A DNA stretch of 64,000 nucleotides from Sphingomonas vulcanisoli (lineage in GTDB: Bacteria > Pseudomonadota > Alphaproteobacteria > Sphingomonadales > Sphingomonadaceae). This document shows, in pieces, positions 5,902-60,882 of this stretch. The position numbers and the translations under genes are program-made. The DNA lies in contig NZ_JAAOZC010000003.1 in the NCBI RefSeq assembly GCF_011761305.1, forward strand, positions 62,001 to 126,000, in the 5' to 3' direction. Position 1 is the first letter of the stretch. Each line of letters begins with the position of its first letter. The notes under the pieces are model-generated. The model had not been told where the DNA came from and made no database searches. It worked only from the letters and a program-made list of their open reading frames with translations.

Positions 5902-6028
5902 AACCCCTCCCCTTAGGGGAGGGGCAAGGGGTGGGGTAGCGGCGGCGGGGGCTCGATGCCCCTGGCGTCGCTTTTGGGGCGACCGGACTCCCCCACCCCA
6001 ACCCCTCCCCTGAAGGGGAGGGGCTTTA
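5902..6028. repeat. Family B intergenic palindrome (CCCCTCCCC/GGGGAGGGG)
   Basis: Two hairpins of the form CCCCTCCCCTtAGGGGAGGGG lie at the two ends. Complementary G-rich and C-rich stretches (GGGGTGGGG and CCCCACCCC) lie just inside and can pair with each other. It separates two convergent genes. Sister copies are at 31434-31580 and 60773-60882. Confidence 0.85.
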
Positions 6029-7865: not shown

Positions 7866-7993
7866 ATCCTCCCCGATACGGGGAGGTGGCAGGCCGGAGG
7901 CCTGACGGAGGGGGCTATCCATCTGCGTCGCGTTCGATTTTGAGCCCCCTCCACCACGCTTCGCGCGGTCCCCCTCCCCGTGCCGGGGAGGAT
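7866..7993. repeat. Family A structured palindrome, copy 1
   Basis: The ends read ATCCTCCCC and GGGGAGGAT. Inner hairpins are CAGGCC-GGA-GGCCTG on the left and CGC-TTC-GCG on the right. It lies between two genes transcribed from the minus strand. The hairpin sequences differ from the other copies but remain paired. Confidence 0.85.
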
Positions 7994-30683: not shown

Positions 30684-30807
30684 ATCCTCCCCCGCTAGGG
30701 AGAGGTGGCGCCGAAGGCGTCGGAGGGGACGGGCGGCGAAATTTTGAGGACATCGGGTCCTCCTGCTCCGTCAGCTGCGCTGACACCTCCCCCTGGCGGG
30801 CGAGGAT
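30684..30807. repeat. Family A structured palindrome, copy 2
   Basis: Ends ATCCTCCCCC and GGCGAGGAT. Inner hairpins are GCGCC-GAA-GGCGT and GTCAGC-TGC-GCTGAC, different in sequence from the other copies but still paired. Between the GntR gene and the nitroreductase stop. Confidence 0.75.
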
Positions 30808-31433: not shown

Positions 31434-31580
31434 AAAAGCCCCTCTCCTTCAGGGGAGGGGTTGGGGTGGGGGCGAGCGAAGCGAGCCTCAGGCCTCGCCG
31501 CAAAAAGCGGCGGCGGGGGCATCGAGCCCCCGCCATCGCTACCCCACCCCTAACCCCTCCCCTGAAGGGGAGGGGCTTGA
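31434..31580. repeat. Family B palindrome between divergent genes
   Basis: CCCCTCTCCTTCAGGGGAGGGG at the left and CCCCTCCCCTGAAGGGGAGGGG at the right are self-complementary hairpins, with GGGGTGGGGG and CCCCACCCC just inside and an extra GGCGGGGGC hairpin in the middle. It is unusual in that the flanking genes diverge. Confidence 0.85.
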
Positions 31581-34631: not shown

Positions 34632-36037
34632 GGGCGCGCAAGATCCTCCCCTGTAAGGGGAGGGGGACCATGCCGAGCATGGTGGAGGGGTATCCCGCTG
34701 TCGATAGGGCGACACCCCTCCGTCGCGCTTCGCGCGCCACCTCCCCTTCCAGGGGAGGATTGATTGCGATCGCTGCCGTTCTCGTCGCCGCACCGCTTCC
34801 CGCCGCGACGATCGCCTTTACCGGCGGCACGGTAGCACTGGGCGACGGCTCCGCGCCGATCGCCAATGGCACGGTGGTGATCGCCAATGGCCGCGTCGTC
34901 TCCGCTGGGGCCAACGCTGCCGTTCCGGCGGGCGCGCAGGTGGTGGACGTCCACGGCAAATGGGTGACCCCCGGCCTGATCGGTGCTTTGACATCGATCG
35001 GCATCCAAGACGTCGAGGGCGTGTCCGAGACAAACGACACGCGCAGCAAGAATTCGCCCTTCTCTGCCGCGATCGACGTATCCGACGCGATCGACATGAC
35101 CAGCCAGACGATCGGGGTCGAGCGTTCGGGCGGGGTCGTCCGCGCTTTCACGGCGGCCGACGCATCCAACACCATCTTCGGCGGGCAGGGGGCGTTCGTC
35201 AGCCTCGCCTCGATGGCCGAGCCGGTGATCAAGGCGCGGCTGTTCCAATATGCCGAGCTGGGCGAGGACAGCATGCGCTCCGGCGGCGGCACCCGGCCCG
35301 CGGCACATGCCCTGCTGCGCGCCGCGCTGGCGGCGGCGAAGAATCCGGCGCTCGCCTCCGATCTCTCCAAGGATGCTTTGATCACCCGTGCCGACGCCGC
35401 TGCTTTGCTGCCGGTGGTGGAGGGCCGTATGCCGCTGCTCGTCCATGTCGAGCGGGCGAGCGACATCCGCCAGGTTCTGCGCCTCAAGCAGGACTATCCT
35501 GCCTTGAAGCTGGTGCTGGTCGGCGTCACCGAAGGCTGGATGGTCGCGCCCGCGATCGCCGCCGCGCATGTGCCGGTGATCGCCGCCGCGCTCGTGGATC
35601 TACCTGAAAGTTTCGAGAGTCTCGCCGCGACGCAATCCAATGTCGGCCGGATGATCAAGGCCGGGGTGCAGGTCGCGCTGTCGACGATCGACGTCACCGG
35701 CGGCGGCCCGCAGCAGCGCAACCTCACCCAGTTCGCCGGCAATCTCGTGGCGTTGACCAAGGTGCCGGGGGCGAGCGGGCTCGATTGGGGAACGGCGTTC
35801 GCGACGATCACCTCGAAGCCCGCGGCGGTGATGGGCCTGCCCGATTACGGCACGCTCAAGCCCGGCGCGCATGCCGATGTCGTGGTGTGGGACGGCGATC
35901 CGCTGGAGCTGAGCTCGGCGCCGGTGGCGATGTTCATCGATGGCGTTCAGCAGCCGATCACCAGCCGCCAGACGCGGCTGCGGGATCGCTATGCGCATCC
36001 GGGGGAAGGGGCGCTGCCCAAGGCTTACGAGCGGTGA
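34628..36037 (+). CDS. Second amidohydrolase, metal motif lost, with a palindrome inside its signal region
   Basis: A 469-residue frame starting at GTG 34628, which overlaps the preceding TGA and has AAGGAG eight bases upstream. The protein begins MRARK, then about 39 codons are formed by a family A palindrome (34643-34760), then LIAIAAVLVAAPLPAA, a proper signal-peptide core. It seems the repeat entered the signal peptide in frame. Translation could also start at TTG 34760, one base after the repeat's own GGGGAGGA. In the body, the position of the first metal motif reads GLIGALTSIG instead of HxH, so it is probably a non-catalytic partner of the preceding enzyme. The C-terminus keeps the KPGAHADVVVWDGDP signature. 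Confidence 0.8.
   Translation: MRARKILPCKGRGTMPSMVEGYPAVDRATPLRRASRATSPSRGGLIAIAAVLVAAPLPAATIAFTGGTVALGDGSAPIANGTVVIANGRVVSAGANAAVPAGAQVVDVHGKWVTPGLIGALTSIGIQDVEGVSETNDTRSKNSPFSAAIDVSDAIDMTSQTIGVERSGGVVRAFTAADASNTIFGGQGAFVSLASMAEPVIKARLFQYAELGEDSMRSGGGTRPAAHALLRAALAAAKNPALASDLSKDALITRADAAALLPVVEGRMPLLVHVERASDIRQVLRLKQDYPALKLVLVGVTEGWMVAPAIAAAHVPVIAAALVDLPESFESLAATQSNVGRMIKAGVQVALSTIDVTGGGPQQRNLTQFAGNLVALTKVPGASGLDWGTAFATITSKPAAVMGLPDYGTLKPGAHADVVVWDGDPLELSSAPVAMFIDGVQQPITSRQTRLRDRYAHPGEGALPKAYER
34643..34760. repeat. Family A structured palindrome, copy 3, inside a coding region
   Basis: Perfect 10-bp ends ATCCTCCCCT and AGGGGAGGAT. Inner hairpins ACCATGC-CGA-GCATGGT and CGCGC-TTC-GCGCG. The frame of the amidohydrolase stays open through the whole element. 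Confidence 0.9.
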
Positions 36038-36042
36038 CTAAT

Positions 36043-36164
36043 ATCCTCCCCTGCAAGGGGAGGGGGACCATGCGCAGCATGGTGGAGGGGTGTTCTCGCT
36101 ATCCAAAAGGTGACACCCCTCCGTCATCGCTGACGCGATGCCACCTCCCCTTGCAGGGGAGGAT
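36043..36164. repeat. Family A structured palindrome, copy 4
   Basis: Ends ATCCTCCCCTGC and GCAGGGGAGGAT. Inner hairpins ACCATGC-GCA-GCATGGT and CATCGC-TGAC-GCGATG. It lies between the second amidohydrolase and the M13 peptidase, which converge. Confidence 0.9.
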
Positions 36165-45109: not shown

Positions 45110-46515
<1,406 letters not shown>

Positions 46516-46647
46516 ATGGCTGACGGCGCCAAGATGGATATGCCTGCGCATGAACGCAGCTATGCCAGCTTCATCGCGATGGCCCGCTGGGGCGCTATCG
46601 CCGTTGCGATCATTGCCGCGATCGTTATTCTGATCATCGCGCGCTGA
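46516..46647 (+). CDS. aa3-type cytochrome c oxidase subunit IV-like small membrane protein
   Basis: Encodes 43 residues: a short polar N-terminus (MADGAKMDMPAHERSYASF) and one transmembrane helix (IAMARWGAIAVAIIAAIVILIIA). This size and layout match the alphaproteobacterial aa3-type oxidase subunit IV family, often found directly before pntA. TAGGA precedes the ATG, and the TGA overlaps the pntA ATG (TGATG), so it heads the pnt operon. Confidence 0.8.
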   Translation: MADGAKMDMPAHERSYASFIAMARWGAIAVAIIAAIVILIIAR

Positions 46648-47774
46648 TGGCGCAGCGGATCGCGGTCCTGCGGGAGGAGGCCGCGGGGGAGCGCCGCGTC
46701 GCCGCCACGCCTGAGACGGTCAAGAAGTATATCGCGCTGGGCGCGACCGTCGCGGTTGAGGCCGGCGCGGGCATAGGCGCTTCGGTCTCCGACGCCGCGT
46801 TCGCCGATGCCGGGGCCGAGATCGGGCCACGCGCGCAGGTGGTGGCCGGTGCCGACATCATTCTCGGCATCCAGGGGCCGGAGGTTGCGAGCCTCGCCGG
46901 CGCCAAGCCGGGCGCCTGGCTGGTCGCGGGGCTCAATCCCTTCGCCGAGAAAGCGCGGATGGAGGCGTATGCCGCCGCGGGCATCGAGGCGCTGGCGATG
47001 GAGTGGATGCCGCGCATCACGCGCGCGCAATCGATGGATATCCTCTCCTCGCAATCCAATCTCGCGGGCTACAAAGCGGTGCTGCTGGCGGCTGCCGAAT
47101 ATGGCCGCGCCTTCCCGATGATGATGACCGCGGCGGGCACCGTCTCCGCCGCGCGCGCCTTCATCATGGGCGTCGGCGTCGCAGGGCTGCAGGCGATCGC
47201 CACCGCGCGACGGCTCGGCGCGCAGGTCTCGGCTACAGACGTGCGTTCGGCCACGAAGGAGCAGATCCAGAGCTTGGGTGCCAAGCCGATCTTCGTCGAG
47301 AATGTGAAGGGGATCGAGGGCGAGGGCTCGGGCGGCTACGCCACCGAGATGAGCGAGGAATATCAGAAGGCGCAGGCCGAACTGGTCTCCGCGCATATCG
47401 CCAAGCAGGACATTGTCATCACCACCGCGCTGATTCCGGGGCGTCCGGCGCCGCGGCTGATCAGCGATGCGCAGATCGCAACGATGCGGGCGGGTAGCGT
47501 GATCGTCGATCTCGCGGCGGAAAGCGGCGGCAATGTCGAAGGCGCGGTCTCGGGCAAGACGATCGAGAAGCATGGCGTGAAGATCATCGGCGCCAAGAAT
47601 ATGGCCGGCACACTCGCCGCCGATTCCTCCGCGCTGTTCAGCCGCAACCTCTACAACTTCCTTTCCGCTTTCTGGGACAAGGAAGCGGGCAAGCCCGTGC
47701 TGGATGCGGAGATCGGCGATGCGATCCGGGTGACGCAAGGCGGCAAGATCGTCAGCGCGAGGCTGCTAGGGTGA
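46647..47774 (+). CDS. pntA: NAD(P) transhydrogenase subunit alpha part 1 (NAD-binding domain)
   Basis: A 375-residue soluble alpha-1 subunit: RIAVLREEAAGERRVAATPETVKKYIALG at the start, the RxR...LSSQSNLAGYKAV motif, the NAD-binding GVGVAGLQAIATARRLGAQVSATDVR (about 173-198), and GYATEMSE. It binds NAD(H) and works with the membrane parts to couple hydride transfer to proton flow, making NADPH. In this genome it is separated from its partner alpha-2 by a palindrome, a DUF559 nuclease gene and a small membrane-protein gene. Confidence 0.97.
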   Translation: MAQRIAVLREEAAGERRVAATPETVKKYIALGATVAVEAGAGIGASVSDAAFADAGAEIGPRAQVVAGADIILGIQGPEVASLAGAKPGAWLVAGLNPFAEKARMEAYAAAGIEALAMEWMPRITRAQSMDILSSQSNLAGYKAVLLAAAEYGRAFPMMMTAAGTVSAARAFIMGVGVAGLQAIATARRLGAQVSATDVRSATKEQIQSLGAKPIFVENVKGIEGEGSGGYATEMSEEYQKAQAELVSAHIAKQDIVITTALIPGRPAPRLISDAQIATMRAGSVIVDLAAESGGNVEGAVSGKTIEKHGVKIIGAKNMAGTLAADSSALFSRNLYNFLSAFWDKEAGKPVLDAEIGDAIRVTQGGKIVSARLLG

Positions 47775-47789
47775 TAGACGTTCGCCCCA

Positions 47790-47910
47790 ATCCTCCCCTG
47801 CAAGGGGAGGGGGACCATGCGCAGCATGGTGGAAGGGTATCCCGCTATCGAAAGGGTGACACCCCTCCGTCATCGCTGACGCGATGCCACCTCCCCTTGC
47901 AGGGGAGGAT
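47790..47910. repeat. Family A structured palindrome, copy 5, inside the pnt operon
   Basis: Ends ATCCTCCCCTGC and GCAGGGGAGGAT. Inner hairpins ACCATGC-GCA-GCATGGT and CATCGC-TGAC-GCGATG, nearly the same as copy 4. Its right end lies five bases before the DUF559 start codon and supplies its ribosome-binding site. Confidence 0.92.
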
Positions 47911-47914
47911 CTGA

Positions 47915-48289
47915 ATGCTTCAGGGTTTGAAGCATGTCGGCGGCCAGGCGCGCAGTCTTCGGCAGGACATGTCGTTGCCGGAAGTGCTATTGTGGCGCCT
48001 CCTCCGTCAGCGACCTGCTGGCCTCAAGTTTAGACGCCAGCATCCAAGTGGGCCTTATGTCGCCGACTTCTATTGCCATGAGGCGCGCCTTATTGTGGAG
48101 ATCGACGGCGAAGCGCACAACTTCGGTGATCGTCCCGCGAGAGACGCTGTCAGGGACTGCTGGTTTGAAGCGCGCGGATTGACCGTTTTCAGGCTCTCCG
48201 CCGCAGATGTCTTGCGCAATGTGGATGCCGCAGCGGATGCGATCACATGTGCTGCTCAAGTATCCTGTCCGGGGGAGGATCATCGGTGA
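47915..48289 (+). CDS. DUF559 (Vsr-like, PD-(D/E)XK) endonuclease domain protein
   Basis: A 124-residue protein of the DUF559 family: MSLPEVLLWRLLRQRPAGLKFRRQHP, YVADFYC with the catalytic aspartate (about 52), LIVEIDGEAHNFG with Glu/Asp (about 63-65), DAVRDCWFEARGLTVFRL and the VLRNVD tail. The fold is related to the Vsr nick endonuclease. The GGGGAGGAT end of the palindrome provides the Shine-Dalgarno. The last 25 bases contain a shortened repeat end (ATCCTGTCC-GGGGGAGGAT, 48262-48280), and the stop overlaps the next start. It interrupts the pnt operon and has no obvious metabolic link to it, so it is probably mobile. Confidence 0.88.
   Translation: MLQGLKHVGGQARSLRQDMSLPEVLLWRLLRQRPAGLKFRRQHPSGPYVADFYCHEARLIVEIDGEAHNFGDRPARDAVRDCWFEARGLTVFRLSAADVLRNVDAAADAITCAAQVSCPGEDHR
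48262..48280. repeat. Shortened family A end pair at the 3' end of the DUF559 gene
   Basis: A 19-bp copy of just the element ends, ATCCT-GTCCGGGGG-AGGAT, inside the last codons of DUF559. Its GGGAGG is correctly spaced to act as the Shine-Dalgarno for GTG 48286. Confidence 0.6.
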
Positions 48290-48450
48290 GTGAGGCGCTC
48301 AAGGCATGGGCGAAGGTGCTGGGCTTCCTGCTGGCCTTCCTCCTGATCCTCGGCTCCGTCGCCTATTTCACCGGACGCCTGGCCGGGCCGCGCGCGGATC
48401 GGCATGGCACCAAGTTCGTAACCCCACCGTCTGCGGAGGCTCGGCACTGA
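48286..48450 (+). CDS. Small single-span membrane protein in the pnt operon
   Basis: Encodes 54 residues with one transmembrane helix (VLGFLLAFLLILGSVAYFTG, about 9-28) and a basic C-terminal tail. The start is GTG 48286, overlapping the DUF559 TGA (GTGA), and its TGA overlaps the ATG of the next pnt gene. I do not recognise a family. Its position suggests an accessory role in the transhydrogenase, or a leftover of the original junction. Confidence 0.7.
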   Translation: MSEALKAWAKVLGFLLAFLLILGSVAYFTGRLAGPRADRHGTKFVTPPSAEARH

Positions 48451-48743
48451 TGGACTTTCTTTCGATCCTGTCGATCTTCGTAATGGCCTGTTTCGTTGGC
48501 TATTATGTCGTCTGGTCGGTGACGCCCGCGCTGCATACGCCGCTGATGGCCGTCACCAACGCGATCTCGTCGGTGATTATCGTCGGTGCGCTGATCGCCA
48601 GCGCGGCAGTGGGGATCGGCGGCAGCGGGGCGGCGTCCAAATGGCTGGGATTGCTCGCTGTCGTGTTCGCCAGCATCAACATCTTCGGGGGCTTCGCGGT
48701 GACCGCGCGGATGCTCGCCATGTATAAAAAGAAGGTGCGCTGA
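48450..48743 (+). CDS. pntA: NAD(P) transhydrogenase subunit alpha part 2 (membrane domain)
   Basis: A 97-residue membrane subunit with three hydrophobic helices: FLSILSIFVMACFVGYYVVWSVTP, then LMAVTNAISSVIIVGALIAS with the conserved TPLMAVTNAISSV, and WLGLLAVVFASINIFGGFAVTARML. It forms part of the proton channel of the transhydrogenase. In alphaproteobacteria the alpha chain is commonly split into two genes, as here. Confidence 0.95.
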   Translation: MDFLSILSIFVMACFVGYYVVWSVTPALHTPLMAVTNAISSVIIVGALIASAAVGIGGSGAASKWLGLLAVVFASINIFGGFAVTARMLAMYKKKVR

Positions 48744-58532: not shown

Positions 58533-58841
58533 CGGGGCGCGCTATGCGGCGCGGTCGACGCGAACTCAATCCTCCCCGGCACGGGGAGGGGGACCATCCG
58601 CAGGATGGTGGAGGGGGCTATCCACCGGCGCTGCGCTTGATTGTGAGCCCCCTCCGTCATCGCTGCGCGATGCCACCTCCCCGTGCCGGGGAGGATGAAA
58701 CTTATCCATCGCGCGTTCAGCCTTCCCCGCGCTGTGGTAACGCCGCCGCACCGGCATCAAAGTTGTGGACGGCTTGATCCACGGATGTGGCGAACCTGTG
58801 TCAACGTCGCTAAGAGGGACAATTCGGAGAATGAAAACCTG
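58533..58841. other. Divergent gap between ctaA and dxs
   Basis: A 309-bp gap filled by a family A palindrome (58569-58696) and a 145-bp leader before dxs. I see a GTGGTAACGC segment that could be a -10 near 58735, but no reliable -35. No gene or RNA is recognised. Confidence 0.5.
58569..58696. repeat. Family A structured palindrome, copy 6
   Basis: Ends ATCCTCCCCGGCACGGGGAGG and CCTCCCCGTGCCGGGGAGGAT. Left hairpin ACCATCC-GCA-GGATGGT (other copies have ACCATGC/GCATGGT, a compensating change), right hairpin CATCGC-TGC-GCGATG. The flanking genes diverge. Confidence 0.9.
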
Positions 58842-60772: not shown

Positions 60773-60882
60773 AGCCCCTACCCTTGAGGGGAGGGGTTGG
60801 GGTGGGGAACGCACTCAACCCAAAGCGCCCAACCTCGATCGGACTACCCCACCCCCAACCCCTCCCCTGAAGGGGAGGGGCT
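60773..60882. repeat. Family B palindrome
   Basis: AGCCCCTACCCTTGAGGGGAGGGG on the left, CCCCTCCCCTGAAGGGGAGGGG on the right, with TTGGGGTGGGG and CCCCACCCCCAA pairing inside. Between convergent dxs and the MlaC/HpnM-like gene. Confidence 0.88.

Follow-up and report, generated by a model that had tools for sequence, protein, structure and literature searches.

DUF559 nuclease genes between matched palindromic ends: a candidate very small mobile unit in the pnt operon of Sphingomonas and elsewhere

Results and Discussion

DUF559 nuclease genes form a unit with the two palindromic ends that enclose them, and the gene-less palindromes scattered through the same genomes are gene-less copies of this unit. 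Gene and ends together are probably a single mobile element, of which the palindromes would be non-autonomous copies and whose spread the nuclease most likely drives. The evidence consists of the linkage of gene and repeat, the matching of the two ends within each unit, the co-segregation of nuclease clade with end type, the co-occurrence of gene and repeat across genomes, the dispersal of near-identical units, the empty sites, and the fold and conserved residues of the nuclease.

A unit in the pnt operon

One such unit (locus L005) separates the two parts of pntA in the 64,000-nucleotide stretch of the Sphingomonas vulcanisoli genome analysed here, referred to as the window. Its features are as follows.

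46647..47774, plus strand: pntA part 1 (AlaDh_PNT_N and AlaDh_PNT_C; Pfam E = 4e-40 and 3e-60), the upstream host gene
47790..47910, no strand: family A palindrome, recognised by its inverted arms, the two ends of the element joined, MITE-like, with AT at each terminus
47792..47810, plus strand: left hairpin CCTCCCC-TGCAA-GGGGAGG, strands 1 and 2 of the triplex motif, from the sequence
47831..47837, plus strand: putative third strand GGAAGGG, inward of the left hairpin, a mirror of GGGGAGG with one mismatch
47890..47908, plus strand: right hairpin CCTCCCC-TTGCA-GGGGAGG, from the sequence, its GGGGAGGA being the likely DUF559 Shine-Dalgarno sequence
47915..48289, plus strand: DUF559 nuclease gene, 124 aa (Pfam PF04480), predicted Vsr/EDxHD-like PD-(D/E)XK fold
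48262..48280, plus strand: decayed right end (GGGGAGGATC), encoding the DUF559 C-terminus; this end is complete in L055, L051, L060 and L118
48286..48450, plus strand: orphan 54-aa ORF, coding doubtful, whose first 4 nt (GTGA) overlap the DUF559 stop
48450..48743, plus strand: pntA part 2 (PNTB_4TM; Pfam E = 3e-34), the downstream host gene

The first-pass annotation had described a palindrome that adjoins the DUF559 gene and supplies its Shine-Dalgarno sequence, the whole insert splitting pntA-1 from pntA-2, and this description holds: the palindrome arms (47790-47813 and 47887-47910, 24 nt each) are 96% complementary, the DUF559 ATG lies 5 nt after the palindrome's GGGGAGGA, and the two pntA parts, both confirmed by Pfam, are just 3-50 bp apart in many relatives, which represents the empty site. 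Folded as single-stranded DNA, the palindrome (47790-47910) attains -46.7 kcal/mol (z = -9.1), a value equalled by none of 200 shuffles. The shortened repeat copy in which the gene was said to end is likewise present, and the GGGGAGGATC segment is read as a decayed right end because a relative, L055, has a full right end at the same place. The TGA stop of the DUF559 gene does overlap a GTG at 48286, as had been noted, but the 54-aa ORF taken to be the next gene has no homologue in any locus compared and no Pfam or NCBIfam match, and so may not be a gene; pntA-2 at 48450 is the first conserved gene downstream. A DNA methyltransferase gene (45110-46228, minus strand), presumably CcrM-like from its appearance, is located about 0.4 kb upstream of pntA-1.

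DUF559 genes lie between matched inverted ends

The 3.27-Mb genome contains five DUF559 genes, all five with GGGAG-type palindrome arms on both sides, although these belong to different subfamilies and the right arm at L005 is only a remnant. Inverted ends were scored by local alignment of the upstream flank with the reverse complement of the downstream flank, with a cut-off of 25. This score is reached by 113 of 140 DUF559 loci in the Sphingomonadaceae. The control, another small gene (PF01042), reaches it at 1 locus of 30 (Fisher 4e-16), and random window positions do so in 2 cases of 400. Outside the family it is reached at 12 of 27 DUF559 loci. The inverted ends of some loci are unclear, among them those of Sinorhizobium and Methylobacterium and about half of the loci outside the family; units of Deinococcus (two species, one unit inside a paa operon) and of Pseudanabaena score 51-68. 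Chance proximity of DUF559 genes and palindromes was rejected on the basis of the random positions, the control gene family and the shuffles.

Within the genus, the ends vary from unit to unit, yet left matches right within a unit. Both sides belong to the same end class in 98 of 118 units, whereas shuffling gives 35 on average and 50 at most. The proposal of the first-pass annotation that nuclease and repeat are one unit is supported. Its assignment of the repeat to one family fared less evenly: the palindrome family is real, 40 or more copies of it having been scored in the genome, but the repeats that accompany the nuclease comprise several matched subfamilies rather than a single family. 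In type C units the conserved stretch continues for approximately 25-40 bp past the hairpin, so that the true termini are not fixed.

A repeat arm lies within the ORF tail in 119 of 140 units, and in 53 of 140 the DUF559 stop overlaps the start codon of an ORF that is 100 codons or longer (15 of 90 for long window ORFs, a rough baseline); use of the repeat as a Shine-Dalgarno sequence is supported in L001, L002, L003 and L005. Such Shine-Dalgarno sequences and overlapping stop and start codons would also suit a host gene, that is, a nuclease of very-short-patch repair, of restriction or of housekeeping near which palindromes serving as expression signals (terminator or Shine-Dalgarno) were gathered by chance or selection, as would the DNA damage attributed to a DUF559 protein of Caulobacter (see below). 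This explanation is already disfavoured, and we consider it very improbable, given the patchy presence of the gene, its several copies per genome at unrelated sites, the end classes matched on both sides, and the existence of empty sites.

Variants of the arrangement were encountered at other loci. In G006, a DUF559 unit orthologous to L001 is missing its 5' half and has a different palindrome (CACCCCGGCCTTGAGCCGGGGTG) in place of it (L056:1416-1501). On two cyanobacterial plasmids (L361 and L362), DUF559 genes are found among GCCCCCTAAATCCCCC..GGGGG repeats that have the same hairpin and third-strand plan in different lettering, and these may bear on the abundant dispersed repeats of cyanobacteria.

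Gene-less palindromes

Gene-less palindromes far outnumber gene-bearing units. The pattern CCTCYCCN{2,12}GGRGAGG occurs 426 times in the genome of the window, versus 8 times for a reversed control. The termini of family A are sharp (RAT/CCTCCCC..GGGGAGG/ATY in 29 copies), and no target duplication was found in these 29 copies beyond the palindromic AT at both ends. The same two ends also enclose a DUF559 gene in L051, L060 and L118, and comparison with these units and with L055 shows the family A palindrome to be MITE-like, possessing the ends of a gene-bearing unit with the gene absent; the palindrome corresponds to the element's own two ends.

Eight more two-hairpin palindromic units of the same superfamily, in several subfamilies, are present in the 64-kb window (5904-6023, 7866-7992, 30685-30805, 31441-31575, 34644-34760, 36044-36164, 58570-58696 and 60777-60880), their hairpins about 95-115 bp apart where both fit the pattern. 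None of them encloses a DUF559 gene, the sole one in the window being that at pnt.

End architecture and the BoxC/PIT/TMECO repeats

Each end consists of a pyrimidine stem (Y), a loop, a purine stem (R) and then, on the inner side, another R strand, the third strand of the motif, which runs in mirror order. The third-strand match averages 0.90 over 275 ends, versus 0.71 when shuffled, and is 0.88 at offset 20 for the left end of L005. Judged by their sequences, the element ends appear to share the intrastrand-triplex architecture of the BoxC/PIT/TMECO repeats, and the letters of E. coli BoxC/TMECO are nearly equal to the ends of L037, L089, L217 and L227. These repeats, recognised since the 1990s and recorded from hundreds of genomes, are linked to genome instability, their origin being unexplained (PMC4666352). 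The intrastrand-triplex motif, earlier named BoxC or PIT, was described in more than 260 genomes by Holder et al. 2015, who demonstrated the triplex in solution for the E. coli sequence and stated that no mobility function had ever been found near such repeats (PMC4666352).

In E. coli the DUF559 gene is ycjD. A BoxC-like arm covers its stop codon, and TMECO number 9 follows some 200 bp downstream. No BoxC end was found upstream of it, and its inverted-end score is 15; ycjD may therefore be a decayed unit. At the position expected of the left BoxC lies an unrelated 37-bp hairpin, CTCATTCTGACAA..TTGTCAGAATGAG (L310:1961-1998). The full ycjD region is matched in 3334 of 5426 E. coli genomes; three strains without ycjD, upon inspection, had an efflux cassette at the spot and no clean empty site. 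The BoxC pair between hrpB and mrcB, about 110 bp, is present in some E. coli strains and absent from others with near-identical outer flanks, some unit-adjacent bases also differing. In E. coli 13081 (L323), this pair has lost the segment between its two GGGAGAGGG arms, as expected from recombination or slippage between the arms.

The nuclease

DUF559 is a very common nuclease family whose members are usually guessed to be repair enzymes. The window protein scores well above the cut-off of the family profile (PF04480, E = 1e-27, 96.6 bits against a cut-off of 20.6), and possesses all ten residues that are invariant in 54 homologues including YcjD (E23, W27, Q42, D51, E62, D64, H68, D77, R80 and R93). 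Among the structures that Foldseek matched to its AlphaFold2 model (pLDDT 86), 3hrl, a DUF559 protein, ranks first and the I-Bth0305I catalytic domain second (3r3p; E = 1.8e-4, TM 0.76 of target), ahead of Vsr. The model thus indicates that the window protein shares the catalytic fold of the EDxHD homing endonuclease I-Bth0305I, and one paper already groups DUF559 with EDxHD (PMC9403480).

Loss of a cytosine methyltransferase in Caulobacter leads to an SOS response in vivo and to DNA damage, for which VsrA, a DUF559 protein, is responsible, so that the family is able to act on chromosomal DNA; a role in very-short-patch repair has been proposed for this protein (PMC12907096). The DUF559 unit contains no methyltransferase. 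A targeted search of the open-access literature found no paper linking DUF559 to repeats.

Nuclease clade, end type and hairpin number

On a tree of 166 DUF559 domains (99 columns, with many poorly resolved forks), the end class changes 17 times, compared with 60 times when shuffled (minimum 49), and the host genus changes 121 times, compared with 134 when shuffled. The clustering of end class on the tree implies that each nuclease and its type of end move together; noise in the tree would be expected to blur such clustering, not create it.

Across 121 Sphingomonadaceae genomes, sampled at one per species, the hairpin count follows DUF559 (Spearman 0.72), and every one of the 43 genomes in which the count exceeds 20 has a strong DUF559 match. 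Among 144 genomes of other Pseudomonadota, DUF559 is present in 29 of the 32 that are hairpin-rich versus 6 of the 112 that are hairpin-poor (p = 3e-21); the exceptions outside the Sphingomonadaceae are three hairpin-rich genomes without DUF559 and four DUF559 genomes with few hairpins. When the genes' own flanking hairpins are subtracted, 9 of 13 within-genus contrasts are positive (Wilcoxon p = 0.010) and the phylum contrast is still 4e-12. That the nuclease drives the spread is the simplest reading of these results, because clade and end type co-segregate and the number of repeats depends on the gene.

Another transposase, of the RAYT or IS kind, could instead move both units and palindromes in trans, with DUF559 as cargo that aids retention or host repair. 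A Y1 transposase is indeed present in the genome of the window and in 22 of the 121 family genomes, where the hairpin average is higher. Y1_Tnp is absent, however, from 28 of the 43 hairpin-rich family genomes, so that RAYT was rejected as the general mobiliser; the Y1 (RAYT-type) genomes that lack a strong DUF559 have 1, 6 and 3 hairpins, and neutral cargo would not be expected to track end type by clade. We regard this explanation as improbable.

Insertion sites and dispersal

The pnt site was compared among relatives as the first-pass annotation had suggested. Of roughly 100 other pnt loci whose gap could be measured, 21 contain DUF559, 20 of them with hairpins, and most others are empty or contain unrelated genes; DUF559 genes elsewhere are linked with palindromes as described above, and the gene is not a fixture of this place in all relatives. 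The 22 pnt DUF559 loci, including that of the window, are all co-directional with the operon, and 21 have hairpins. This uniform orientation could be explained by selection or by site-specific homing. The pntA-1/pntA-2 gap is a general insertion spot; in L093, L094, L101, L107, L110 and L119, from other genera, it is occupied by 380-950 bp of varied sequence without DUF559 or hairpins.

Nuclease distances among the 22 pnt loci do not correlate with host PntA distances (rho 0.09, Mantel p 0.19), which disfavours vertical inheritance of the pnt copy. The same insertion sites recur in many genera; going by the sequence, we take these to be pnt, fabI-aroC, yqeY-dnaG and others. Together, the mismatch of distances at pnt and the recurrence of sites suggest repeated arrival at favoured sites in the manner of homing genes.

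Within one genome, L090 and L154 lie in unrelated surroundings yet share 96.3% identity over 491 bp, and in G004 three units at three places share 82-84% identity. The sister genome G045 has unrelated sequence and no DUF559 at the place of L090, and the unit is absent from the place of L154 in every sister-genome sequence inspected. Clean empty sites for L090 and L154 were sought in congeners, which lack the unit but in which the intergenic sequence has itself been replaced; the Sphingomonadaceae yielded no base-exact empty site. Phage records contained no DNA match to the L090 unit, and a search of a defence library returned just a weak, partial match to DpdF.

A close rival of nuclease-driven spread is that the gene invades palindromes: the palindromes would spread by other means, and a free-standing DUF559 homing gene would cut gene-less palindromes, or an intergenic site, and be copied into the break by way of matching arms. 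The resemblance of fold and residues to I-Bth0305I, the location of the DUF559 gene between two halves of a palindrome, the reuse of sites across genera and the unlinked distances at pnt are all in its favour. Whole units nevertheless disperse to unrelated places within one genome, and the abundance of palindromes depends on the presence of DUF559, which is unexpected if they spread without it; homing of this kind is, in our assessment, unlikely.

Proposed mechanism

Under the preferred explanation, that the nuclease drives the spread, a DUF559 gene and two palindromic ends would constitute a very small mobile unit of approximately 450-500 bp, each end being a C-rich/G-rich hairpin followed inward by a putative third purine strand (the BoxC/PIT/TMECO motif). 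Such a unit would settle between genes, often co-directionally within an operon, and because its ORF runs through the right end, where GGGGAG(A)GG could act as a Shine-Dalgarno sequence, downstream translation would survive. The Vsr/EDxHD-type nuclease most likely recognises the hairpin/triplex ends of its own class, or a site that holds one, and would cut or nick there, upon which repair could copy the unit elsewhere, or a bare palindrome that has the same two ends and is non-autonomous. The agency of the nuclease, its action on the ends and the chemistry of insertion are what we infer from the associations described above. Counting against this explanation are the lack of a target duplication beyond the palindromic AT, the unfixed termini of type C, the one-sided BoxC of ycjD, the loci with unclear inverted ends, the exceptional genomes outside the family, the uniform orientation at pnt and the repair role proposed in Caulobacter.

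A broader generalisation, which we offer tentatively and would put at a little short of even, is that these units represent bacterial mobile elements of a new class, present in several phyla, in which a lone PD-(D/E)XK (EDxHD-like) nuclease gene with intrastrand-triplex ends gives rise to BoxC/PIT-type repeats and spreads them by cutting DNA in or close to such structures, with no known transposase chemistry. The connections to BoxC/PIT repeats and to the homing-endonuclease fold are additions to the first-pass annotation. If BoxC/PIT repeats and DUF559 are parts of one mobile unit, two puzzles would merge into a single system open to experiment: a tiny selfish element whose ends are triplex DNA, which would use a nuclease instead of a transposase and enter operons without breaking translation. 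The corresponding family of small repeat-specific nucleases would be of use in the study of non-B DNA.

Comparison with known systems

The BoxC/PIT/TMECO repeats have in common with the units described here a hairpin with a third strand, a lettering almost identical to that of type B ends, an arrangement in inverted pairs of units with two types of end, and an intergenic location, but they have been known as repeats only (PMC4666352), whereas in the present case they bound a unit that contains a nuclease gene. The REP/REPIN repeats and their RAYT genes (REPtrons; PMC3733652) are similar in consisting of a single small nuclease-type gene flanked by palindromes, with many non-autonomous palindromes and a clade matched to repeat type. 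RAYT, however, is an HUH tyrosine transposase, whereas DUF559 is assigned a PD-(D/E)XK/EDxHD fold in a unit without an HUH enzyme, and the GTAG/CGTC tag at the hairpin foot of REPtrons has no counterpart at the termini of family A given above. MITEs of IS elements are comparable as short non-autonomous copies that share both ends with a gene-bearing unit, unlike which the DUF559 unit has no DDE/DEDD transposase and no clear target duplication.

EDxHD homing endonucleases (I-Bth0305I, PDB 3r3p) resemble the DUF559 units in the predicted fold of the catalytic domain and in being encoded by free-standing nuclease genes at repeated insertion sites. We know of no homing endonuclease genes that carry triplex-forming palindromic ends or have given rise to gene-less derivative repeats. 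Vsr and VsrA of Caulobacter are of the same superfamily; the Vsr fold is a weaker match to the model of the window protein than I-Bth0305I is, and VsrA, itself a DUF559 protein, is described in the accessible part of the report as a mismatch-repair enzyme, with no repeat association found there (PMC12907096).
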